A stretch of 64,000 nt of DNA. It comes from Enterococcus malodoratus ATCC 43197 (GTDB taxonomy: Bacteria > Bacillota > Bacilli > Lactobacillales > Enterococcaceae). Below are positions 51,467-64,000 of the stretch, one piece after another (the stretch's first letter is position 1; every line of letters starts with the position of its first letter). The stretch spans positions 620,001-684,000 of the forward strand of contig NZ_KE136482.1 in the NCBI RefSeq assembly GCF_000407185.1. Direction: 5' to 3'. The notes under the pieces are model-generated. The model searched no databases. It worked only from the letters and a program-made list of their open reading frames with translations, and was not told the origin of the DNA. The translations under genes were made by a program, and so were the position numbers.

Positions 51467-52459
51467 TTATGATAGAGTTGTTTCCAGCACTTCTACTGGT
51501 GTTGCGGTTTCTTTCAATACCGCATTCAGTTCTTCGATATTCTTACATCCTTGAGTATTCATCCATTCGATGGCTGCTTCTTTGCCTGCTGTAATGTAGC
51601 TTTCTACACCGTCCGCCCATGTAGCCCGTCCACAAAGTACTCCATTGAAGGTTGACCCGGCGTCTTTTGCAAAATGAAGCGTTTCTTGGAATAGCTCCGC
51701 TTTAACACCGGCGCTTAAAAATATGAACGGTAAGTCAGTCGCTCCAGCTTGTTCTTTGAAAAAGTTGGCGGCTTCCGCTTTGGTATGAACAACTTCGCCA
51801 GTCGCGTAGCCTTCGACATAGTTCATATTGACAGGCACTTCAACCTTCAATACATCCACTCCGTAACGCGGATCAGAGAACTCCTTCATCATATCGTTCA
51901 CCTTATGCGGTTTTTTGATCGCGTATTCTCTCGATGTCGCATCAGAAATAGTTGCGTCGTAGGAGACCAATTCTAAGAAAAACGGTAGATTTTCCGCCTG
52001 ACATTCTGAACCGATCCGCTCGATAAAGGCATGCTTTTGATCATTGATTTCATCAGATTCATCGACATCATAGTAAAGTAAAAATTTGCAGGCGTCCGCG
52101 CCCGCTTCTTTTAAGCGTTTGACAGACCAGATTGATAATAGATCCGGTAAACGCCCCGGAGTTGATGCGTCATAGCCGGTTTTTTCATATGCTAATAATA
52201 AACCGGCATTTTCGGCTCTGACATCTGCTGCTGGCAAGCCGTATTCAGGATCTAATAAAATCGATGAGGCGTATTTCGTTAATTGCTCAGAGACGATTTC
52301 TTTGAATTCGACAATCTCTGACTCTTCAGCCTCGCTGCCTTTGAACTTGGTGATCATCTTCTTCAACGCACCGCGCTGATCAATCGCTAAAGCCCCGATT
52401 ACTCCATCTTCATTGCACAACTGCTTGATAAACTGACGCTTTTCTTCACTTGTTTCCAT
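51467..52459 (-). CDS. lacD: Tagatose 1,6-diphosphate aldolase
   Basis: A 330-residue class I aldolase that splits tagatose 1,6-bisphosphate into dihydroxyacetone phosphate and glyceraldehyde 3-phosphate, the last step of the tagatose-6-phosphate pathway. Family landmarks are [17 protein letters not shown] at the N-terminus, [11 protein letters not shown], the Schiff-base-region VDVLKVEVP and [13 protein letters not shown]. The length matches the family. It is the last gene of lacR-lacABCD, 18 bases after lacC. Confidence 0.95.
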
Positions 52460-52477
52460 ACTGTTCGCTCCCCTTAT

Positions 52478-53404
52478 TTAGACTTCTTCAACTTTAATTT
52501 GATCGAATAGTGTTTGATAATTGGCCAACTCGACGTAGCCGGTTGTTGCTTCTTGTGCGTTTAACATACCAAGGACATTCCCTTGTTTTAAAATGGCTTC
52601 GTCTGAAAATCCTTTTTCGATTGCATCTGTCAGGCCTGCCACTGTCGCATCACCAGATCCAACGGGATTAACGACAGCGATCTTAGGAATCATTACGCGA
52701 TAAAATTTATCGAAATGTTTCGCAAAAGCACCCTCGCCGCCCATCGAAACAACGATCCATTCAATCCCATCGAAGATCGAATCGGATAAAGCCGCTTTTA
52801 GTTCCACCGCATTTGTAGAAATCGGTTTTTCCAATAGACCAGCTAATTCTTCCGTGTTTGGTTTGATTAAGTGCGGCTTAGCATCCCCTGTAAGTACCTC
52901 TTTCAATGCTTCACCGGAACAATCCAAAACAACTGGTTTTCCCTCACACCGCTGCAGCATCTGACTATAAAAATCCACTGATAATCCTTCAGGCAGACTG
53001 CCTGAAAACGAGATAATAGATGCTCTCTTCGCTAATTGCTCGAAATGTTCTAAGAACGCCGCAGCTTCCTCTTTGGTGATAACTGGTCCGCTTTCCAGAA
53101 TTTCGGTCTGCTGGCCCTCGTGTAAAACAGCGATACAATTTCGCGTTTCACCGCTGATCGGCAAAAAATCATGAGCGATCTTTGTTTGATCTAAATCCTT
53201 TTTAATTTCCTCTCCCAGAAATCCGCCGATCAAACCGCTGGCCACTACATCAGCATCTAATTGTTTCAAAATACGGGTAACGTTCAAGCCTTTGCCACCT
53301 GCCGTTTTGCGAACATTGCGCACACGATTAACGGTATCCAGCTTGAACTCTGCTAAGGGATAAGAAATATCGATCGACGGGTTCATCGTAATTGTTAGAA
53401 TCAT
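52478..53404 (-). CDS. lacC: Tagatose-6-phosphate kinase
   Basis: A 308-residue PfkB-family kinase that phosphorylates tagatose 6-phosphate at C1. The N-terminal PSIDISYPL and [11 protein letters not shown] motifs and the C-terminal signature [12 protein letters not shown], with the catalytic Asp, are present. 1-phosphofructokinase (FruK) is a close relative, but the position between lacB and lacD supports LacC. Confidence 0.94.
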
Positions 53405-53416
53405 TGGCCGCTCCTC

Positions 53417-53932
53417 TTAATCGTGGTATTCGCCGCGATCCCATTTTTCGATAAATTCATCGAAGAAATGCGGATCTGACTGATTAGCACTGGCTTTTTC
53501 AACATGATCAATCTTCGCGATCAACTTCTTATTTTCTTCTGTCTCTTGATATTCCGCCTTAATGAACGCGTCTAAAATGTCGCAGATCAGAAATTCCCCA
53601 GTGATCCGTGCGCCGAAGCCGATCACATTTGCGTTCAATTGTTCTTTCGCATAAATGGCAGTAGTCATATCTCGCACCAATGCACTGCGAATGCCAGGAA
53701 CTTTGTTGACAGCATTATTAATACCGACACCGGTTCCGCATAAGCAAACACCTAAATCCGCCTCGCCATTCGTTACGGCCTCGCCGACTTTCTTTCCATA
53801 GATTGGATAGTGGGTTCGCGTAAAGTCATAAGTCCCCATGTCCAACACTTCATGTCCTTTTGATTTCAAAAAATCTGATACAGCCATTTTAGTATCTGTG
53901 ACGATATGGTCACAGCCGATTGCGATTTTCAT
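53417..53932 (-). CDS. lacB: Galactose-6-phosphate isomerase subunit LacB
   Basis: A 171-residue RpiB-fold subunit. LacA and LacB together convert galactose 6-phosphate to tagatose 6-phosphate. [10 protein letters not shown] at the N-terminus and the active-site loop [14 protein letters not shown] are the LacB landmarks. I used the ATG at 53932, nine bases after AAGGAAGG; the alternative ATG at 53941 lies directly on that site. Confidence 0.95.
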
Positions 53933-53947
53933 TTTATTCATCCTTCC

Positions 53948-54376
53948 TTACGCCATTTTATTTAACATATCGACACGAACTTGATGCCGTCCGCCGTCGT
54001 AATCCGCTTGCAGAAATTCTCGTACAATATTCAATGCCAACTCATCCCCGACAATTTCAGAACCTAGTGTGATCATGCGGGAATTGTTGTGCTCTCTCGT
54101 CATATAAGCACTGCGTTCATCTGAAACTTCTGCCGCTACCATTCCTTTGACCTTTACCGCCGTAATAAAGCTGCCGGCACCATAGCCATCAAAAGCAACT
54201 CCTAGACTGCCTTCGTTTTCATTCAAATCATTGGCGATCGCCAAGGTCGACTCAACAAAATCCTCCGAAGCAGTTTCACTTTTATCGACGACGGTAAAGC
54301 CTTTAGCGATTAAGTCTTTCTTGACCAATTCCTTTAGTCTCATGCCTTCTTTGTCTGAACCAATTACTACACGCAT
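53948..54376 (-). CDS. lacA: Galactose-6-phosphate isomerase subunit LacA
   Basis: A 142-residue RpiB-fold partner of LacB, with [16 protein letters not shown] at the N-terminus and the [12 protein letters not shown] loop in place of the catalytic CGTG loop, as is normal for LacA. It starts the lacABCD run 51 bases after lacR. Confidence 0.95.
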
Positions 54377-55371: not shown

Positions 55372-55863
55372 TTGAAAAAGCTTTTTTTCAAAGACACGAC
55401 CTATGTTTCTAGTCGAAGTACACAAGAAGAAGTTTTTGAGGAAGTTTATTTGGATCTGCTAAACAAACAATTAGTTACTGAAGATTTTTTGGCCAGTCTT
55501 TTAGAGCGGGAACGAAATTATCCGACCGGTTTAGATCTCTCACCCGTTTCAGAGGTATTGCCCGACATCGCGATTCCTCACACCGAGAGTGAATATGTGC
55601 GAACGACGCGCATTATTCCGATCAAACTGAAAAATGAGATTACTTTCCATAATATGATCTCGCCGAGCGATCAAATTTCTGTCCGTTTCCTATTTATGAT
55701 TTTGAATGAAAACGGTGAAGCGCAAGCCGGCATGCTGGCGGATATCATGGATTTTATTAATTCGGTGGACAAAGAAAAATTATGTGCATTTTTCAATCTA
55801 CAAGACATTGAAGCAATCTATCAGTTTTTAGAGGAACACTTTACTATGGAAGTTTCTGCATAA
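55372..55863 (+). CDS. gatA: PTS EIIA, galactitol/galactose type
   Basis: A 163-residue EIIA domain with active H70 in DIAIPHTESEYVR. The frame begins with TTG at 55372, nine bases after AAAGGAG; no ATG is available, so a TTG start is likely. It takes phosphate from HPr and gives it to the EIIB encoded next. It is the first gene of the PTS operon divergent from lacR. Confidence 0.88.
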   Translation: MKKLFFKDTTYVSSRSTQEEVFEEVYLDLLNKQLVTEDFLASLLERERNYPTGLDLSPVSEVLPDIAIPHTESEYVRTTRIIPIKLKNEITFHNMISPSDQISVRFLFMILNENGEAQAGMLADIMDFINSVDKEKLCAFFNLQDIEAIYQFLEEHFTMEVSA

Positions 55864-55904
55864 TGCAGGATAAAAAATAAACATATTTTAAGGAGAGAAA
55901 AATC

Positions 55905-56207
55905 ATGATCAAAATTTTAGCAGCTTGTGGCGCGGGAGTTAATTCAAGCCATCAAATCAAAAGTGCCCTAGAAACAGAACTAAACAATCGCGGCTATCAA
56001 GTCACCTGTGACGCCGTTATGATCAAAGATATCAATGAGGAAATGTTGTCTCACTACGATATTTTCGCTCAGATCGCTAATACTGATTTAGGATTTAACG
56101 TAAATATCCCGATCGTTGATGCAGGAGCGATCCTTTACCGCATCCCGGCAATGGCTGAACCTGTTTACCAAAGTATGGAAAGCGCTATCCAATCAATCAC
56201 TAAATAG
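55905..56207 (+). CDS. gatB: PTS EIIB, galactitol/galactose type
   Basis: A 100-residue EIIB with phosphocysteine C8 in ILAACGAGVNSSHQI, the GatB motif. The TDLGFNVNIPIVDAG segment is also typical of this family. It lies between EIIA and EIIC, with AAGGAGAG before the ATG. Confidence 0.92.
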   Translation: MIKILAACGAGVNSSHQIKSALETELNNRGYQVTCDAVMIKDINEEMLSHYDIFAQIANTDLGFNVNIPIVDAGAILYRIPAMAEPVYQSMESAIQSITK

Positions 56208-56228
56208 GCACCAAGAAAGGACAAGCTA

Positions 56229-57689
56229 ATGAGTACAATTATTGATATCGCCAATCAAATATTTACTCCCCTAATCAATTTAGGGGCGGCACCATTAATG
56301 ACCATCGTACTGACCGTTATCGCCTTATTCTTCAAAGTAAAACCGACTCGTGCTCTAGAGGGCGGGATCAAACTCGGGATTGCTTTGACCGGTATCGGAG
56401 CTATTATTGGAATTTTAACGACTGCATTCTCAGACGCCATGACCGCTTTTGTTGAACGAACAGGAATTTCTTTAAATATTACTGATGTCGGCTGGGCTCC
56501 TTTAGCAACGATCACTTGGGGCTCCCCTTACACGCTTTATTTCTTATTAGTAATGGTGATCGTCAATATCATCATGTTGGCAATGAAAAAAACCAACACA
56601 TTAGATGTTGATATTTTTGATATTTGGCATTTAGCTATCGTTGGATTGTTCGCGATTTTCTCTGGCGCGAACCTATTTATCGCTACCGCTTTGGTTATCT
56701 TCATCGGTGTACTCAAGATTTGGAATTCTGATTTGATGAAGCCAACCTTCAATGATTTATTGAACGCACCTGATAGTAACCCTATGACAACAACGCATAT
56801 GAACTATATGATGAATCCGATCATTATGGTTTTCGACAAAATTTTTGATAAAGTCTTCCCTTGGTTAGACAAATACGATTTTGATGCTGCTAAACTAAAC
56901 AGCAAAATCGGTTTCTGGGGATCAAAATTCGCAATCGGGATTTATTTGGGTATTTTTGTTGGATTATTAGCAGGACAAACACCAACACAAATTTTTTCAT
57001 TGGCCTTTACCGCGGCTGTATGTTTGGAATTGTTCTCTTTGATTGGCGCTTGGTTTATTGCCGCTGTCGAACCCTTATCACAAGGGATCACCGACTTTGC
57101 CAACAAACGTTTGAAAGGTCGTACGATCAACATCGGTTTGGATTGGCCTTTCCTAGCAGGTCGCGCAGAAATCTGGGCTGCTGCGAACGTTTTAGCACCA
57201 ATCATGTTACTTGAAGCAATTATTTTGCCAGGCAATAAATTATTGCCGCTGGGCGGAATCATCGCTATGGGTGTCACTCCAGCCTTGTTAGTTGTCACTC
57301 GCGGTAAATTGATCCGCATGATCGTGATCGGTGCCATTGAATTACCATTGTTCTTATGGTCAGGTACCTTAATCGCGCCATTCGTTACTCAAACGGCCAA
57401 AGCAGTCGGTGCTTTCCCTTCAGGACTAAGCGAATCTGCTTTGATCTCTCATACAACAATGGAAGGTCCGATCGAGAAATTCTTAGGCTACTTAGTTGGT
57501 AACGCCTCTCAAGGACAAATCGAATTCGTGATCTACGCCGCATTAGCATTGGCCGCTTACCTATTAATCTTCATCTGGTATGCACGTCAAATGAAGAAAC
57601 GCAACGCTGCGTATGCTGCTGAAAAAGAAGAAAAAGCCGCTCCCGCAGCAGCTAAAGGCAATGTAGCTTATGCCGCTGAAGTGAAATAA
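56229..57689 (+). CDS. gatC: PTS EIIC, galactitol/galactose type
   Basis: A 486-residue permease with about ten hydrophobic segments and the GatC landmarks: FFKVKPTRALEGGIKLGIALTGIG near the N-terminus, TSMNYMMNP-like HMNYMMNPI in the middle loop and GRAEIWAAANVLAP. The end is an Ala/Glu/Lys-rich cytoplasmic tail. With lacABCD beside it, the sugar is likely galactose (giving galactose 6-phosphate) or galactitol; several streptococci and lactobacilli use this PTS type for galactose. Confidence 0.9.
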   Translation: MSTIIDIANQIFTPLINLGAAPLMTIVLTVIALFFKVKPTRALEGGIKLGIALTGIGAIIGILTTAFSDAMTAFVERTGISLNITDVGWAPLATITWGSPYTLYFLLVMVIVNIIMLAMKKTNTLDVDIFDIWHLAIVGLFAIFSGANLFIATALVIFIGVLKIWNSDLMKPTFNDLLNAPDSNPMTTTHMNYMMNPIIMVFDKIFDKVFPWLDKYDFDAAKLNSKIGFWGSKFAIGIYLGIFVGLLAGQTPTQIFSLAFTAAVCLELFSLIGAWFIAAVEPLSQGITDFANKRLKGRTINIGLDWPFLAGRAEIWAAANVLAPIMLLEAIILPGNKLLPLGGIIAMGVTPALLVVTRGKLIRMIVIGAIELPLFLWSGTLIAPFVTQTAKAVGAFPSGLSESALISHTTMEGPIEKFLGYLVGNASQGQIEFVIYAALALAAYLLIFIWYARQMKKRNAAYAAEKEEKAAPAAAKGNVAYAAEVK

Positions 57690-57697
57690 AACAAACA

Positions 57698-57725
57698 AAA
57701 CCCGGAGATTTTAAATCTCCGGGTT
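57698..57725. terminator. Bidirectional terminator
   Basis: A perfect 14-bp palindromic stem (AAACCCGGAGATTT with its complement) between the converging gatC and DeoR genes. Confidence 0.92.
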
Positions 57726-57729
57726 TATT

Positions 57730-58482
57730 TTATACAAGATGCTTTGTCGCTTTTTCAATTACTTCGTAATGCCTTCGTTCATGTTTATTGGTAATGACCG
57801 CCGTCACATCACGCAGATTGTAGAAGACTGAAAAGTCACTCTTTCCGATTTTAGAGTGATCAATCAGCAAATAGCGGTCAACAGAATTATTTAACGCAAT
57901 TTGCTGGGTCTGCCCCTCTTCAAAGGTAGCGGTCATGATCTTTTGTCCGCTTAAGGCATTGCAGCTGAAGAAGGATTTATGAAAATTCATGTCCATCAGT
58001 GATTTGTTTGTGATTTCTCCAATGAAACACTGGGTAGCTACTCTCAGTTCGCCGCCAATCAGATAGATTTTCCAGTTCTTTTTACACTGATTTAATCGAT
58101 CAAAAATCGGCTGGCAATTCGTCACGATCCGCAAAAAGTCTGCTTGAATATACTGGACAGTCAATTCGACCGTCGTTCCTGGGCCTAGAAAAACAGTATC
58201 ACCATCATTGATGAATTCCACTGCTCTTTTAGCAATCTTTTCTTTTTCATTGTAATGGACAATTTTCTTTTCACTGTGAGAAAGTTCTTCCTGACGGTAA
58301 AGGTTTTGTAATCGCGCGCCGCCATGAACGCGTTCTAACAAGCCTTGTCCCTCAAGCTCATCTAAATCTCGGCGAACGGTCATATCAGAAACAGATAACT
58401 CCGCCATGATCTCACTACTGCGAATCGTTCCGTCCGCCTCTAACATTGCCAGAATCGCCCGAAATCTATCTTCCTTTAACAT
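57730..58482 (-). CDS. DeoR-family regulator of the sulfatase-PTS operon
   Basis: A 250-residue DeoR protein. The HTH is at about 5-55 (RFRAILAMLEADGTIRS, LSVSDMTVRRDLDELEG); the effector domain contains VFLGPGTTVELTVQYI and IVTNCQPIF. It is a paralogue of LacR in this window with the same order of motifs. The start at 58482 is preceded by GGGATCGGGA. It overlaps the end of the TauE/SafE gene and is the last gene of the operon that enters from the right edge, so it probably represses it in response to a sugar phosphate. Confidence 0.88.
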   Translation of the reverse strand: MLKEDRFRAILAMLEADGTIRSSEIMAELSVSDMTVRRDLDELEGQGLLERVHGGARLQNLYRQEELSHSEKKIVHYNEKEKIAKRAVEFINDGDTVFLGPGTTVELTVQYIQADFLRIVTNCQPIFDRLNQCKKNWKIYLIGGELRVATQCFIGEITNKSLMDMNFHKSFFSCNALSGQKIMTATFEEGQTQQIALNNSVDRYLLIDHSKIGKSDFSVFYNLRDVTAVITNKHERRHYEVIEKATKHLV

Positions 58483-58496
58483 TCCCGATCCCCATT

Positions 58497-59273
58497 TCAG
58501 AAAAATAGTTTTATTCCATTGAAACAATTAATCAGCAGCACTAGAATGATCACCCCTTGGTACACGGTATTCACCTTATCTGCCGGTAATACACCGCTAA
58601 CTTTAGCTCCGAACCAGCCACCTAGAATAGCGGCCGGAATAATGAAAAGGAAAAGTGATAAATCATAGCGCTGATAGCTGGACGATAAAAAAATGGCGAA
58701 TAGTTTTGAGGATTGGGAGAAAAAGATTGTGATGATCGAATAAACGGTTGCCTCTTTGATAGTTAATCCGAAAAACAGCATCAGCATCGCCACATTGATC
58801 GGACCTCCCCCGATTCCCAACAAACTGGCCAGAAATCCTAGAATAAAACCAACAAATACGTACACAACAGATATTTGACAAGAAAAGCTGAACGCTTCTT
58901 TTTTCGAATAAATAAGTGCAAAAAGCAACGTAATGATGGTTAAAACTATCTGAACGATTTGAGTCGTTCTTTCACTTGAGAAGCGTAGGATCCATTCGAA
59001 AGCACTATTACCCAAAACACCGCCACCCATTGATCCGACAGAAATCAATAGTGCTTTCCCCCAATGAATCGTGACCTTATTCTTTAATTGGCGAATCGTC
59101 GACACGATCGACATCGTAAAAACAGCCATAGATGAATAAAACGAAATAGCGGCCAATGAATGGGCACCGATGAAATCAAAAATCGGCTTGATCAAAACCC
59201 CGCCACCCATTCCTGAGATTGCCCCGACAGTATTTGCTGCTACTATAACTAAAAAATAGATAAGTCCGATCAC
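58497..59273 (-). CDS. TauE/SafE-family anion exporter
   Basis: A 258-residue membrane protein with about eight helices in two repeats. Each repeat begins with the family glycine motif: AISGMGGGVLIKPI and GFLASLLGIGGGPINVAML. Members export sulfite, sulfoacetate or related anions. In an operon with a sulfatase, it would remove the sulfate or sulfite released in the cytoplasm (inference). It is 15 bases after the maturase gene. Confidence 0.88.
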   Translation of the reverse strand: MIGLIYFLVIVAANTVGAISGMGGGVLIKPIFDFIGAHSLAAISFYSSMAVFTMSIVSTIRQLKNKVTIHWGKALLISVGSMGGGVLGNSAFEWILRFSSERTTQIVQIVLTIITLLFALIYSKKEAFSFSCQISVVYVFVGFILGFLASLLGIGGGPINVAMLMLFFGLTIKEATVYSIITIFFSQSSKLFAIFLSSSYQRYDLSLFLFIIPAAILGGWFGAKVSGVLPADKVNTVYQGVIILVLLINCFNGIKLFF

Positions 59274-59287
59274 TTTCCTTCTCCCTT

Positions 59288-60412
59288 TTAACTATTTTTC
59301 ACTGTCTGTTGTTGCAGACATTCTAAGATTGCACTTATTTTAGGAACTAGCGTATTCAGCAAAACTTGATAACCGCACATTTCCTTTTGTTCGTCCACAT
59401 AAACAGCATCCTTCATTCGTTTACATCCGCCGCCGCAGTAATTTTTAAATGGGCAATCCATGCAAAGTTTGGTGTCCGCTGATCTTTCACAGAGAAATTT
59501 TTTAGTGATATCTTGTTCAAATAGTTCCCTTAAACCTTGTTCTTGGATGTATCCCATACGATACTCGTCCAAAACATAAAAGTCGCAGGGATAAACACTG
59601 CCGTCTGCTTCGATTACATATTGAACTTGACAATTTCCCAACAACCCGCAAGCATTCACTTGTTTGCGGGCGAATAAATGAACAAGATCATCAAATAATT
59701 TGATACTTATGTAGTTCCCTTTTCCCAATTCTTTGAACCATAGTTTGAACAGCTGCTGATAAAACGTAGCGAAGCGCTGCGGTGTCAACGCATAACTGCT
59801 TCTTCTCTCTGCATTTATTTCATCCAAACAGGGAATAAATTGAACATATCGAATGCAATTATCTTGTAAGAACCGGAAAACCTTTTTGGCTTCCTTTGCT
59901 AATTGATTAGTTAACACGCATAAAATATTGTAGTTAATTTGATGGTCGTCAAACAGTTTTTTTGTCGCCATTACGCGATGGTAGGTGCCGCGCCCTTTGA
60001 TGTCTAAACGATTCAGATTATGATAAATCGGACTGCCGTCAACCGATAGACCGACTAAAAAGTTGTACCGCTTAAACAAACGGCACCAGCGTTGATTGAT
60101 CAATATGCCATTTGTTTGAATCGCATAATGAACAGTGACTCTTTTGGTCTGCTGTTCAACCAATTCTGCAAGCTTCTCAAAATAGCCGATTCCTGCTAAG
60201 GTCGGCTCTCCACCTTGAAAGGCCAGTGTCAGCTCATCTCCGTCTTCCAGATCCAAGTAAAGATTGGCAATCATTTTTTGAGTTGTGTCATCCGTCATTT
60301 TCCCATAAGAGCGCACGTCTCTAAGTGAACTGATATCTGCATAGAAACAGTATTTGCAACGAATATTACAAAGCGATGATGCCGGTTTGATCAAAACAGA
60401 GATGTGCTTCAC
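59288..60412 (-). CDS. Anaerobic sulfatase-maturating enzyme (radical SAM/SPASM)
   Basis: A 374-residue radical SAM enzyme that oxidises the sulfatase active-site Cys or Ser to C-alpha-formylglycine without oxygen. The radical SAM cluster is C15-x3-C19-x2-C22 (SLCNIRCKYCFYAD), the SAM-binding FQGGEPTLAG follows, and the SPASM region has its cysteines in NACGLLGNC, YPCDFYVL (with the presumed catalytic Asp) and LCMDCPFKNYCGGGC. Its length fits the anSME family. It lies two genes downstream of a Cys-type sulfatase, its obvious client. Confidence 0.94.
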   Translation of the reverse strand: MKHISVLIKPASSLCNIRCKYCFYADISSLRDVRSYGKMTDDTTQKMIANLYLDLEDGDELTLAFQGGEPTLAGIGYFEKLAELVEQQTKRVTVHYAIQTNGILINQRWCRLFKRYNFLVGLSVDGSPIYHNLNRLDIKGRGTYHRVMATKKLFDDHQINYNILCVLTNQLAKEAKKVFRFLQDNCIRYVQFIPCLDEINAERRSSYALTPQRFATFYQQLFKLWFKELGKGNYISIKLFDDLVHLFARKQVNACGLLGNCQVQYVIEADGSVYPCDFYVLDEYRMGYIQEQGLRELFEQDITKKFLCERSADTKLCMDCPFKNYCGGGCKRMKDAVYVDEQKEMCGYQVLLNTLVPKISAILECLQQQTVKNS

Positions 60413-60428
60413 TGCTTAAAACTCCCAT

Positions 60429-61283
60429 CTATTTAAGAATTTTTGATAGATTACCATTGTGCTTAGCGAGTAGATCACGACTCTCATTTTGAGTAAGAGC
60501 TAAGCGCTGAATCAAAATGACCATCGGAAGATCAAAATCGTTCTCTTTTAAAAGTATTTCCGCTTCTTCGTTCGTTATCTTGGCTATCTTGCTCAAAATA
60601 GCGATAGAACGCTGAACCAATTTTTGATTGATTGGCTGAACATAGATCATTGCCTCTTCAAAAACTTTACCCAAACGAATCATTAGAGACGTAGAAAACA
60701 TATTTAGAACTAGCTTTTGAGCGGTCCCAGCCTTCATTCGGGTCGAACCGCTAACAACTTCTTTCCCGACAGGAAGATCAATCGCAACTTCTGCCAGTTC
60801 GCCTAGCTCACTTGTTTCAACGCAAGAAATGCCAATCGTGGACGCACCGATCTCTTTTCCATACTTTAGCGCCGCCATACAATATGGTGTTCTTCCGCTG
60901 GCAGCAATCGCTACTACAACGTCTGAGGCGTTCAATTGAACCTTTTTTACCTCTTGATAAGCTTGTTCTTCTGAATCCTCGGCCTGTTCGACTGCGCGAA
61001 ACATTGCTTCCTCGCCACCCGCTAGTAAACAAAAATAGCGCGCAGGATCAATTCCGTAAGTCGGCGTCATTTCCAGTGCATCCATTGCGGCGATACGGCC
61101 AGAACTGCCGGCACCGCAATAGATGATTCTTCCACCTTGTAAAAATTTTTGACAAGCTAATTCAACAGCTTCCTCGATTTTGGTTATTTTCTTTTCAACG
61201 ATACCCGCGATCTCTTGGTCCGATGAATTGATTCTTCTCAACACTTCATTCGTAGATAACTGATCAATATATGTTTCTTTCAT
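60429..61283 (-). CDS. murQ: N-acetylmuramic acid 6-phosphate etherase (MurQ-like)
   Basis: A 284-residue SIS-fold enzyme. MurQ removes D-lactate from N-acetylmuramic acid 6-phosphate to give GlcNAc 6-phosphate. Family signatures are YCGAGSSGRIAAMDALEMTP, ARYFCLLAGGEEA, AIAASGRTPYCM and GSTRMKAGTAQK; the proposed catalytic Glu lies in ALEMTP. It is slightly shorter than usual (about 298). Its place between a sulfatase and an anSME is unusual, and the true substrate might be another 3-O-substituted amino-sugar phosphate. Confidence 0.92.
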   Translation of the reverse strand: MKETYIDQLSTNEVLRRINSSDQEIAGIVEKKITKIEEAVELACQKFLQGGRIIYCGAGSSGRIAAMDALEMTPTYGIDPARYFCLLAGGEEAMFRAVEQAEDSEEQAYQEVKKVQLNASDVVVAIAASGRTPYCMAALKYGKEIGASTIGISCVETSELGELAEVAIDLPVGKEVVSGSTRMKAGTAQKLVLNMFSTSLMIRLGKVFEEAMIYVQPINQKLVQRSIAILSKIAKITNEEAEILLKENDFDLPMVILIQRLALTQNESRDLLAKHNGNLSKILK

Positions 61284-61327
61284 TCGAAATCCACTCTTTC
61301 CTACTCATTCAGCGAAAGTCGTTCAAA

Positions 61328-62782
61328 TTATTCGACTGGCGCCTCCAAAATGTCTAACTGCGTCTTTAAATGGGTTTTATACCGTTCTTCGATCTCTGGA
61401 TCAATGACCGGGTTTTGCTGCATTGGGTCTTTTTTAAGATCAAACAGCAAACTATCCTTGGTATATTCAGAGACATCCGGCAAGCCATCTAAAATTGCAG
61501 CGCGTTTGATCGGCACTTTGAAAACAGGGAATTCCGTCCTAGCCAAAAAGCGGCCAGTTTGAATAGCTGCAGGATCTGCTTCTCCTAAATAATGTCGAAT
61601 CGTTGTTGGAATCCCCGCATACTCGAACAACGGCTGATTCTCTTCATTTGGCGAACGGAAATAGCTGTATTTGCCATCGGTGATATTGACTGTGATTCCA
61701 TGAGCCCCATAAAGCGCGAAGGATTTATCTCGCGGTTCGTCTTCAAAAATCGGCTGCCAAGAAGCTCCTTGCACCTCTTCTGGAGTGGTTGCTCCAAATG
61801 CATCCAGCACAGTTGGCATCACATCGATATTTTGCGTTACCTCATCTGTCCTTTCACCCGCTTTTTTCCCTTGCGGATGCTTAACAAACAACGGAATCGC
61901 GGCTAGCTCGTTGAAATTATGCATATAGTTTTTTCCAAACAGCTCGCGATCACCCAAGAAATAGCCATGATCAGAGGTTACAATGATCTGCGTATCCTCA
62001 TACATCTCCGTTTCTTTTAACTTATCGATTAAACGCCCGAAATGAACGTCTGTCATAGTCACCAGGGCCGAATAACGATTTCGAATATATTCTTCCGCTT
62101 CCGCAGGGACATCGACTTCTCCGTAGACCGGTGTTTCGAAAAATGGACCTGAATAGTCCTTTTGATAGATATCCATGTATTTTTGGGGCACATCAAAAGG
62201 CTCATGCGGATCAAAAACTTCTACTTGCAGAAAGAAGTCATCTTCTCCTTTATTCGTTTCCAGCCAATCACAAGCTGAAGCAAAAGTTCGCGGTGTCGGA
62301 TAAGCCTCTTCATTCTCATGCCATAGTTCGCGGTTCGCTTGATATTGTTTTCTTAAACGCCCGTGGTATTGTTCCGGCATCCACTCAGGATCGCGCATGA
62401 TCGAATGCCATGGATCCCCTTCTTGTCCGCGCTGAAAATCCCACGTCGTAAACTGATTGATGTACCCTTCGCCGCCTAATCTGAAATAATGGGTGTGATC
62501 CGTCGTCAGATGTGAAAAGACCTCCTGCTCAGCCAGCACTTTAGGCAACGTAATATCAAAGGGTTCAATCGGCCCCCAAGAACGTTCCAAAAAGTTTAAT
62601 CGACCAGTCATTAAATCCCGCCGTGCAGGCATACACGGCGTTGAACCAATATAGTGATTATCAAAAGTCAGCGAATCCTCGGCAAAGGCATCTAAGTTAG
62701 GAGTTAGTACATTGGTCGTTGGATTATAAGTGGATAAGTAATCCTTTCGTAACGTATCCATCAAAACTAAAATTGTACGCAT
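61328..62782 (-). CDS. Cytoplasmic Cys-type sulfatase
   Basis: A 484-residue alkaline-phosphatase-fold sulfatase without a signal peptide. The formylglycine motif C-x-P-x-R is Cys50 in STPCMPARRDLMTGR, and metal ligands are in ILVLMDTLRKDY (Asp9) and IIVTSDHGYFLGD. Because the protein stays inside and the operon encodes a PTS, it should desulfate an imported, phosphorylated sulfo-sugar. The residue downstream pattern (WGPIEPFDITLPKVL, EVFDPHEPFDVP) is common in the large N-acetylhexosamine/glycan sulfatase group. The exact sulfated position cannot be told. Confidence 0.92.
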   Translation of the reverse strand: MRTILVLMDTLRKDYLSTYNPTTNVLTPNLDAFAEDSLTFDNHYIGSTPCMPARRDLMTGRLNFLERSWGPIEPFDITLPKVLAEQEVFSHLTTDHTHYFRLGGEGYINQFTTWDFQRGQEGDPWHSIMRDPEWMPEQYHGRLRKQYQANRELWHENEEAYPTPRTFASACDWLETNKGEDDFFLQVEVFDPHEPFDVPQKYMDIYQKDYSGPFFETPVYGEVDVPAEAEEYIRNRYSALVTMTDVHFGRLIDKLKETEMYEDTQIIVTSDHGYFLGDRELFGKNYMHNFNELAAIPLFVKHPQGKKAGERTDEVTQNIDVMPTVLDAFGATTPEEVQGASWQPIFEDEPRDKSFALYGAHGITVNITDGKYSYFRSPNEENQPLFEYAGIPTTIRHYLGEADPAAIQTGRFLARTEFPVFKVPIKRAAILDGLPDVSEYTKDSLLFDLKKDPMQQNPVIDPEIEERYKTHLKTQLDILEAPVE

Positions 62783-62795
62783 CTTTTTCCTTCCC

Positions 62796-63605
62796 TTATA
62801 CCAAGATTCCGAATGCTGATAAAGCGATCGCGATAAAGATAATGACGAAAATCATGGCAACTACGTGTTTCCCATTCCATTTTTTTAACAAATACAAACA
62901 TAGAATCGTCATTAACATCGGTAGCATATTCGGCATTACTTTGTCTAACATTTCCTGAACCTTGATCGCTGTATCCCCTTTACCATACTGCAAGCCAAGA
63001 GTGATATTAACGGTCGAGGCGATCAACGCGCCTGTAACCATTACCCCTAAAACATTGGCGGACGTACTGATCCGGTCTAGCAGCTTCTTGCCATTTTCAG
63101 AAGTCAGCAGCTCCCGCCCCTTTGTATACCCCATATGAACGCCATAATACTTCAACGGGAAATAAAGCGCATTGATCATGACGAACATCAAAACCGGGCC
63201 GATAAAGTTCCCGTCAACAGCAAAGGAGGCTCCGATACTTCCGGCGATCGGAAACCAAGTGAAATTCAATAAACTGTCGCCTAAACCGGCTAATGGCCCC
63301 ATCAAACTGGTCTTAACGGCGATAACTGATTCTTTTTCGTCTTCATCGGTACTTTCTTCCAATGCGATCGTGATTCCCAGAATAAACGGTACCAAAACTG
63401 GATGACTATTAAAAAACTCCAAGTGTCGCTGCTGAGCTTCGATCTTTTCTTCAACCGGACGGTCTTTGTAAAGACGTTTCAACACTGGTGTGATCGAGTA
63501 GAGCGTTCCGAGACTCTGCATCCGTTCGTAATTGTGAGAAAATTGGATTAATTGCGAACGCCAAAATACTTTGTTCAGATCTTTTTTCGTGATTGTACTT
63601 TCCAT
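62796..63605 (-). CDS. PTS EIID, mannose/sorbose family
   Basis: A 269-residue EIID, the second membrane component of mannose-type PTS. Landmarks are FWRSQLIQFSHNYERMQSLGTLYSI at the N-terminus, SLMGPLAGLGDSLLNFTWFPI and the C-terminal hydrophobic helix. Members import mannose, GlcNAc, GalNAc, sorbose and other amino sugars. Its ATG overlaps the stop of EIIC (TAATG). Confidence 0.94.
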   Translation of the reverse strand: MESTITKKDLNKVFWRSQLIQFSHNYERMQSLGTLYSITPVLKRLYKDRPVEEKIEAQQRHLEFFNSHPVLVPFILGITIALEESTDEDEKESVIAVKTSLMGPLAGLGDSLLNFTWFPIAGSIGASFAVDGNFIGPVLMFVMINALYFPLKYYGVHMGYTKGRELLTSENGKKLLDRISTSANVLGVMVTGALIASTVNITLGLQYGKGDTAIKVQEMLDKVMPNMLPMLMTILCLYLLKKWNGKHVVAMIFVIIFIAIALSAFGILV

Positions 63606-64000
63606 TACAGATCAAAGCTCCCTTCATCATCAGCAACGGTAACCGTCGAGCTGTCTGAGTCCCCGTCATTTCCGCCACCGGCCCGATTCATTAAAATGTC
63701 ATATAAGGCTGCCGCACATAAAGCGAACATCGCTACCGCAATCGTCGGCAGTTCTAAGAACGTTGCTAAAGCAAAGCCTAAAAGCAGGAAAATCCACATG
63801 TTCTTTTTCATCATCATCGAAAGCAGCATCGCCAACCCAACAGCCGGAATCACTTTCGAAGCGATGGTCAAGCCAGATAATATGAATGCTGGAACAGCAT
63901 CTAAAACCGCTTCAATCGCTGGTGCTCCAAGATAAACAGCGATGAAAACAGGAATCGCCCGACTTAGGAAAAAGAAAAACCCGCCAAGATATTGCAGTTT
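63605..64000 (-). CDS. PTS EIIC, mannose/sorbose family, partial
   Basis: The C-terminal 131 residues of an EIIC subunit; the frame is open to the right edge. The visible part includes FFFLSRAIPVFIAVYLGAP and VIPAVGLAMLLSMMM, normal for mannose-family IIC, and a Gly/Asp/Ser-rich acidic tail (about 35 residues) that is longer than in typical members. EIIA and EIIB of the same PTS are presumably just outside the window. Confidence 0.9.
   Translation of the reverse strand, partial: KLQYLGGFFFFLSRAIPVFIAVYLGAPAIEAVLDAVPAFILSGLTIASKVIPAVGLAMLLSMMMKKNMWIFLLLGFALATFLELPTIAVAMFALCAAALYDILMNRAGGGNDGDSDSSTVTVADDEGSFDL

Follow-up and report, generated by a model that had tools for sequence, protein, structure and literature searches.

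A mannose-family PTS, a sulfatase predicted to be cytoplasmic and a predicted anaerobic maturase in one operon of Enterococcus malodoratus: a candidate route for sulfated galactose

Sulfate protects mucin glycans. The arylsulfatase of Clostridium perfringens is a cytosolic, Cys-type enzyme activated by an anaerobic sulfatase-maturating enzyme (anSME); we know of no coupling of it to a phosphotransferase system (PTS). Lactic acid bacteria catabolize galactose by the Lac/Gat route, in which galactose-6-phosphate passes via tagatose-6-phosphate to triose phosphates and LacA and LacB are the subunits of galactose-6-phosphate isomerase. In Bacteroides, according to the relevant section of PMC9067506, desulfation precedes import into the cytoplasm. 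The closest published island is pneumococcal SPH1922-1930, which, in the passages that describe it, contains a ROK regulator, a Lac-family PTS, a sulfatase, a sulfatase-modifying factor and TauE, with its substrate given as unknown (McAllister 2012, PMC3283741; Bidossi 2012, PMC3302838). The assay passage of the former reports that sulfatase activity with 4-methylumbelliferyl sulfate was undetected (PMC3283741). The streptococcal hyaluronan route SP0321-3-4-5 is described, in excerpts of two reports, as PTS-Man import of hyaluronan disaccharides (PMC3302838, PMC9067506). Here we analyzed a sulfatase operon of Enterococcus malodoratus ATCC 43197 (4.62 Mb genome). The window is the whole stretch of 64,000 nt, G000:C2:620001-684000; plain coordinates refer to it, and those prefixed L008 or L009 refer to DNA to its right. 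We lean, by a little, toward an operon that catabolizes a small sulfated hexose, with sulfated galactose as the likeliest candidate; the sugar would be desulfated in the cytoplasm after PTS import.

Open reading frames and profiles give the transcription order, on the minus strand, as EIIA, EIIB, EIIC, EIID, sulfatase, MurQ, anSME, TauE and DeoR, with EIIA and EIIB lying to the right of the window:

L008:10953-11372, minus strand, PTS mannose-family EIIA (PF03610), outside the window
L008:10522-10905, minus strand, PTS mannose-family EIIB (PF03830), frame broken in the assembly, outside the window
63605..64402 (L008:9605-10402; in-window C-terminal part 63605..64000), minus strand, PTS mannose-family EIIC (PF03609)
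62796..63605, minus strand, PTS mannose-family EIID (PF03613, E 4.5e-94; TIGR00828, 255.2 bits, below the cut-off of 292.75)
61328..62782, minus strand, Cys-type sulfatase of 484 aa (PF00884, E 3.9e-36; C50-M-P-A-R)
60429..61283, minus strand, MurQ-type SIS etherase paralogue (PRK05441, 346.6 bits, cut-off 168)
59288..60412, minus strand, predicted anSME, radical SAM/SPASM (best profile matches PRK13758 and TIGR03942, both below cut-off; CxxxCxxC)
58497..59273, minus strand, predicted TauE/SafE-family anion exporter (PF01925, E 1e-30)
57730..58527, minus strand, DeoR-family regulator, final gene of the unit (PF08220, PF00455), TTG start with the internal ATG 58482 as alternative
57698..57726, strandless, bidirectional terminator-like hairpin of 13 pairs, separating the operon from a convergent gat operon

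The original prediction, made from the window alone, had seen a single minus-strand run with gaps below 50 nt or overlaps from EIIC on, and the coordinates agree: EIIC and EIID overlap by 1 nt, the following gaps are 13, 44, 16 and 14 nt, and TauE and DeoR overlap by 31 nt (a gap of 14 nt if DeoR begins at ATG 58482). Its gene content, including the anion exporter gene, also stood; in its gene order, MurQ had been placed after anSME and lies instead between the sulfatase and anSME. A further look to the right, which it had proposed for the missing PTS subunits and for glycosidases, yielded EIIA and the frame-broken EIIB, and no glycosidase was seen by eye among the open reading frames up to L008:12398.

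The gene content and order, the lack of an export signal, the catalytic motifs, the conservation and the proximity of LacAB were read directly from the sequence. The sulfatase begins MRTILVLMDTLRKD. It carries the signature C/S-x-P-x-R (C50-M-P-A-R) and metal-site residues (D9, D271, H272, K284) of the formylglycine sulfatases, which we take to be family S1. D9, C50, P52, R54, D271, H272 and K284 are invariant in a 31-sequence alignment. With an invariant Asp as early as residue 9, a signal peptide would not fit, and the stretch of 23 codons from the preceding stop to the ATG contains no in-frame ATG, GTG or TTG. Among the six relatives scanned likewise (all subtype relatives but G911), five have no upstream start. 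The earlier view of an unexported Cys-type sulfatase is thereby upheld, and the better start that might have added a signal peptide was not found. The nearest solved structures are all distant: the phosphonate monoester hydrolase 4upk, the N-acetylglucosamine (GlcNAc)-6-sulfatase 5g2v and choline sulfatases. The substrate is not readable from them because they are so distant. A scan of plasmids gave 536 records, all less than 60% identical.

We defined a subtype (type A) by a sulfatase with at least about 70% identity to that of the window. It comprises eight loci: the window, G001 (89%), G082 (Aerococcaceae bacterium NML190073; 76%), Streptococcus hyovaginalis (G153; 74%), G053 (73%), S. pseudopneumoniae (G185; 72%), Lacticaseibacillus daqingensis (70%) and G911 (69.8%). 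This subtype is rare, with 5 carriers among 395 genomes of the order, and spans at least three families plus L. daqingensis. The PTS-sulfatase core is conserved in other Lactobacillales-type genomes. EIIA-B-C-D stand directly before the sulfatase in all eight loci. An anSME gene is also nearby in all eight, divergent in S. pseudopneumoniae and upstream in G911. These results bear out the earlier proposal that a PTS is coupled to a cytoplasmic sulfatase and its anSME. TauE occurs in the window, G001, S. pseudopneumoniae and L. daqingensis. Compared with G001, all 11 gene pairs (EIIB, LacD and the last DeoR left out) gave dN/dS of 0.010-0.095, with synonymous sites near saturation.

For wider relatives, we took the best 80 of 525 sulfatases from a contig scan; 79 of these are among 93 loci examined by script, one having been dropped as a duplicate of G082. 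An EII gene was detected within 6 kb at 15 of the 93 loci, and 4 loci fell away because they gave no sulfatase open reading frame. Distant relatives (35-39% identity) have a beta-glucoside-type EII alongside in six loci (G097, G056, G005, G018, G064 and G123:C5; type called by recognition and blastp), and a seventh, G101, has a GAT-type EII (by Pfam) that the script missed. As judged from these neighborhoods, PTS coupling recurs with differing PTS families, and most of the sampled wider-family sulfatases have no detected PTS neighbor.

The predicted anSME of the window contains the radical SAM motif CxxxCxxC (C15, C19 and C22) and both PF04055 and PF13186. Its equivalog scores are 337 bits with TIGR03942 (cut-off 349.45) and 364.1 with PRK13758 (cut-off 441). 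At eight loci anSME is joined by a formylglycine-generating enzyme (FGE): G082, S. hyovaginalis, S. pseudopneumoniae and G911, which are four of the eight subtype loci, and G056, G005, G018 and G123:C5. Their FGE genes are:

L041:12030-12911, L049:12640-13503, L050:11499-12362, L044:12696-13559, L045:12831-13682, L046:5499-6350, L151:13065-13928 and L164:4702-5619, FGE genes of the eight anSME and FGE loci

Four of these proteins were compared with PF03781; the others were identified by blastp. G097 and L121 have FGE and no anSME detected nearby. GGS[FY]LCHxSYC[NK]RYR, presumably the motif of an active FGE, is kept in all eight FGE proteins examined (those of G911 and L121 left out). Together, the O2-independent anSME and the O2-dependent FGE would permit sulfatase activation with or without oxygen. 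No description of such dual maturation at one locus was recognized in the open-licence PMC literature searched.

The choice of galactose as the sugar comes from the neighboring genes:

51467..54376, minus strand, LacD, LacC, LacB and LacA genes (open reading frames with homologues in the relatives' loci; named by sequence recognition)

Lac labels in the relatives come from recognition and blastp against these window genes. LacA and LacB are both in the fetched neighborhood of five of the eight subtype loci (window, G001, G082, S. hyovaginalis and G911; a raw count), and LacA alone is beside a sixth, that of L. daqingensis. In G082, one strand reads EIIABCD-sulfatase-anSME-FGE-LacA-LacB-LacC-aldose epimerase; the order in G911 is FGE-anSME-EIIABCD-sulfatase-DeoR-LacA-LacB. 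In G001, LacABCD and the sulfatase operon lie close together because the intervening DeoR and gat genes appear as no more than short open reading frame fragments (L040:14579-15812). No amino-sugar catabolic genes of the NagA, NagB or AgaS type were recognized by eye among the open reading frames of the eight subtype loci. Sulfated galactose is most likely the substrate, rather than a sulfated amino sugar. In L. daqingensis, LacA, a DUF4867 gene and an aldose-epimerase-like gene adjoin the operon (L051:2789-5444); DUF4867 may belong to the galactose/tagatose route.

The route that we postulate would run as follows. The mannose-family EIIA-B-C-D would import sulfated galactose and phosphorylate it at C6, as PTSs of this family usually do; the sulfate should therefore be on C2, C3 or C4. 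The anSME would turn Cys50 of the sulfatase into formylglycine without O2, and the sulfatase would hydrolyze the sulfate ester within the cytoplasm, leaving galactose-6-phosphate. The nearby LacAB, LacC and LacD would carry this via tagatose-6-phosphate to triose phosphates, and TauE would export the released sulfate. The DeoR regulators, perhaps with CcpA, would control the unit. MurQ, present in two operons from the genus of the window, would play an accessory part and might act on a 3-O-substituted form of the sugar. In this scheme the substrate, the position of the sulfate, the direction of TauE and the role of MurQ are what we infer from the gene set.

Several observations speak against the sulfated-galactose route. 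The window LacABCD form a separate unit 3.4 kb away, beside the gat-type PTS at 55372-57689, which may be their real partner, and LacABCD are common in this order. LacAB were not found near the S. pseudopneumoniae locus (10 kb each side) or near that of G053, where the contig has little sequence upstream of the operon. TauE is missing from four of the eight subtype loci. The distant solved relatives of the sulfatase are of mixed specificity, and S. hyovaginalis has two TTG among the 17 codons upstream of its sulfatase ATG. The closest published island hints at amino-sugar metabolism, in the part of the report that gives the similarities of its proteins to an N-acetylmannosamine (ManNAc)-type repressor and epimerase (PMC3283741). 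Finally, the function of the operon in this strain is uncertain because EIIB is frame-broken in the assembly.

The last point raises the question of decay. All four mannose-family EII subunits are present by their profiles. The first 127 codons of EIIB, roughly three quarters of the gene, are open before the frame is lost; the remaining quarter is in another frame and ends 16 nt before EIIC. The C-terminus of the sulfatase, at a TAA stop, is about 8 residues shorter than in the relatives. Together these defects suggest that the operon may be decaying and nonfunctional in this strain, which would be compatible with any of the other readings. Against this, the remaining frames of the operon are open, the dN/dS values of the operon genes compared with G001 (EIIB and the last DeoR left out) are low, a lone frame break may be an assembly error, and EIIB is open in all seven relatives, each of which has four open EII frames. 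We consider decay possible but unlikely.

It is also conceivable that the formylglycine enzyme acts on a sulfated disaccharide, or on a phosphonate or a phosphate mono- or diester as in the phosphonate monoester hydrolase branch. The top solved relative is such a hydrolase, and the beta-glucoside-type (six loci) or GAT-type (one locus) EII beside other branches suggests that substrates vary. However, the TauE-family genes in four of the eight subtype loci and in other branches fit a release of sulfate, and an intracellular glycosidase for a disaccharide was not seen in the operon. We regard a substrate of this kind as improbable.

The original prediction had favored a sulfated amino sugar with cleavage of a lactyl ether, in which MurQ would be central. 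The operon MurQ scores just under the equivalog TIGR00274 (301.6 vs. 302). It aligns over nearly its full length with the solved MurQ 4s12/4lzj and keeps two glutamates, which we take to be catalytic. It is 70% identical to the G001 copy and 41% identical to a second MurQ of the same genome, and its dN/dS against G001 is 0.095. The second MurQ is in a mupG-murQ-PTS operon (G000:C1:861185-861967; L154) separate from the sulfatase operon, the label of its PTS coming solely from blastp similarity and gene position; the context of MupG and the N-acetylmuramic acid PTS flanks this MurQ, not the operon one. The operon-type MurQ is present in 2 of 20 genomes of the genus. Among 398 genomes of the class, at least one copy (that of the window) was found at E<=1e-80, a lower bound because in some genomes candidates were scored in part (e.g. 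6 of 19) and the G001 copy was missed. With MurQ in only two of the eight subtype loci (window and G001), we rejected it as a core step; by sequence, the gene has been maintained but is accessory.

Import of a sulfated N-acetylhexosamine or muramyl-type sugar, followed by desulfation and MurQ cleavage to GlcNAc-6-phosphate and lactate, would account for a conserved and well aligned MurQ within two operons, for a GlcNAc-6-sulfatase among the best solved relatives, and for the ManNAc-repressor-like ROK and ManNAc-6-phosphate-epimerase-like protein in the portion of the report on the pneumococcal island (PMC3283741), but six of the eight loci lack MurQ, amino-sugar catabolic genes were recognized by eye in none, LacA is near six and LacB near five, the genome has its separate mupG-murQ-PTS operon, and a 6-sulfated sugar should not be phosphorylatable at C6 by a mannose PTS, so that we find this route quite improbable.

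For the sulfated-galactose route, a possible source of the sugar was seen in S. pseudopneumoniae. Directly downstream of its locus, a gene encodes a LamG/GH51-like protein of 999 aa whose N-terminus, judged by eye, resembles a signal peptide. Among solved structures, its sequence relatives are alpha-L-arabinofuranosidases. Homologues were found in S. hyovaginalis (at least 2279 aa, with a GH84-type domain, PF07555), in G082 (1576 aa, with a YSIRK signal and an LPXTG anchor) and in Streptococcus G237 (with a GH95 domain, adjoining a protein with GH20 and alpha-fucosidase domains); two of the four bearers thus have GH84- or GH95-type domain fusions.

L050:13232-16231, L156:3-6839, L157:4503-9233 and L165:7696-15807, LamG/GH51-like genes of the four bearers

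Among 197 Streptococcus genomes, 2 have the type-A sulfatase, 3 the GH51-like enzyme and 2 both; the corresponding counts for 395 genomes of the order are 5, 2 and 2, S. pseudopneumoniae being in both sets. Without this genome, in which the enzyme was discovered, the overlap has a chance of about 0.01 per set by a hand calculation that ignores kinship. The enzyme is in three of the eight type-A genomes. It was rejected as a part of the window's system: no match was obtained in G000, G053, G911 or L. daqingensis, and G001 gave weak GH51-type matches only. It is possible that the GH51-like enzyme releases sulfo-galactose. A whole host-mucin route, in which secreted LamG/GH51-like enzymes would free intact sulfated galactose, a mannose-type PTS would import it as sulfo-sugar-6-phosphate, and a sulfatase activated by FGE and anSME, with or without oxygen, would desulfate it only once inside the cell, is offered tentatively, and we doubt that all of it will hold; in the window and G001 operons, both from one genus, the MurQ-type lyase might beta-eliminate a 3-O-substituent, even sulfate.

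Local signals were also searched. Upstream of EIIA is a promoter-like TTGACA-17-TATCAT (11 of 12 consensus positions); promoter-like matches in the region are not above shuffles (17 vs. 17.8), and weaker terminator-like matches also lie within genes. The best cre-like sites match 9-11 of 11 specified positions, 33-72 nt 5' of EIIA, at seven promoters (G911 left out), and are only suggestive because shuffles equal the window's score in 37 of 300 cases. A DeoR-box-like motif matched once in L008, and the window had no match even with 2 mismatches allowed. A second, divergent DeoR gene lies beyond EIIA to the right of the window. The operon has gat-type PTS clusters with DeoR genes on both sides (window 55372-57689 and L008:15553-19773). 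The operon DeoR is 67% identical to that at L008:15553-16305 over the 101 residues compared, suggesting duplication. Farther off, at L009:6867-9296, is a PFL2-3-type glycyl radical enzyme with a likely activase nearby (by eye). As a candidate sulfonate enzyme it was rejected: the sole model whose cut-off it exceeds is that of the general PFL2-3 family, and it falls below the cut-off of every specific model listed.

If the sulfated-galactose route is true, it would represent a strategy of Gram-positive bacteria in which import comes first and the sugar is kept private, and would explain the use of sulfated host sugars by lactic acid bacteria. It would also give a testable substrate idea for the uncharacterized streptococcal PTS-sulfatase islands, and the GH51-like protein would be a candidate new glycosidase for sulfated glycans. 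No description of a PTS route for sulfated galactose was recognized in the open-licence PMC literature searched. Like the C. perfringens arylsulfatase, the E. malodoratus enzyme is an unexported Cys-type sulfatase with a predicted radical SAM activator in a Firmicute. Unlike the ordinary Lac/Gat route, the pathway of the window would be fed by desulfation after PTS import. It shares with the streptococcal hyaluronan route a mannose-family PTS that feeds a host-glycan fragment to cytoplasmic processing; that route has its own unsaturated disaccharide and glucuronyl hydrolase, and no sulfatase, anSME or TauE is mentioned in the excerpt that describes it (PMC9067506). The nearest likeness is to pneumococcal SPH1922-1930, which, as far as its published descriptions extend, also unites a PTS, a sulfatase, a maturase and TauE (PMC3283741, PMC3302838). 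This tempers the earlier claim that such an operon in a lactic acid bacterium is unusual. Unlike the pneumococcal island, with its Lac-family PTS and ROK regulator, the window operon has mannose-family EII proteins and DeoR, and in the parts of those reports that treat the island neither a link to the tagatose pathway nor the type of maturase is stated. PTS-sulfatase gene sets were known already; the form with a mannose-family PTS, anSME and DeoR, and with its predicted link to the tagatose pathway, appears to be new.

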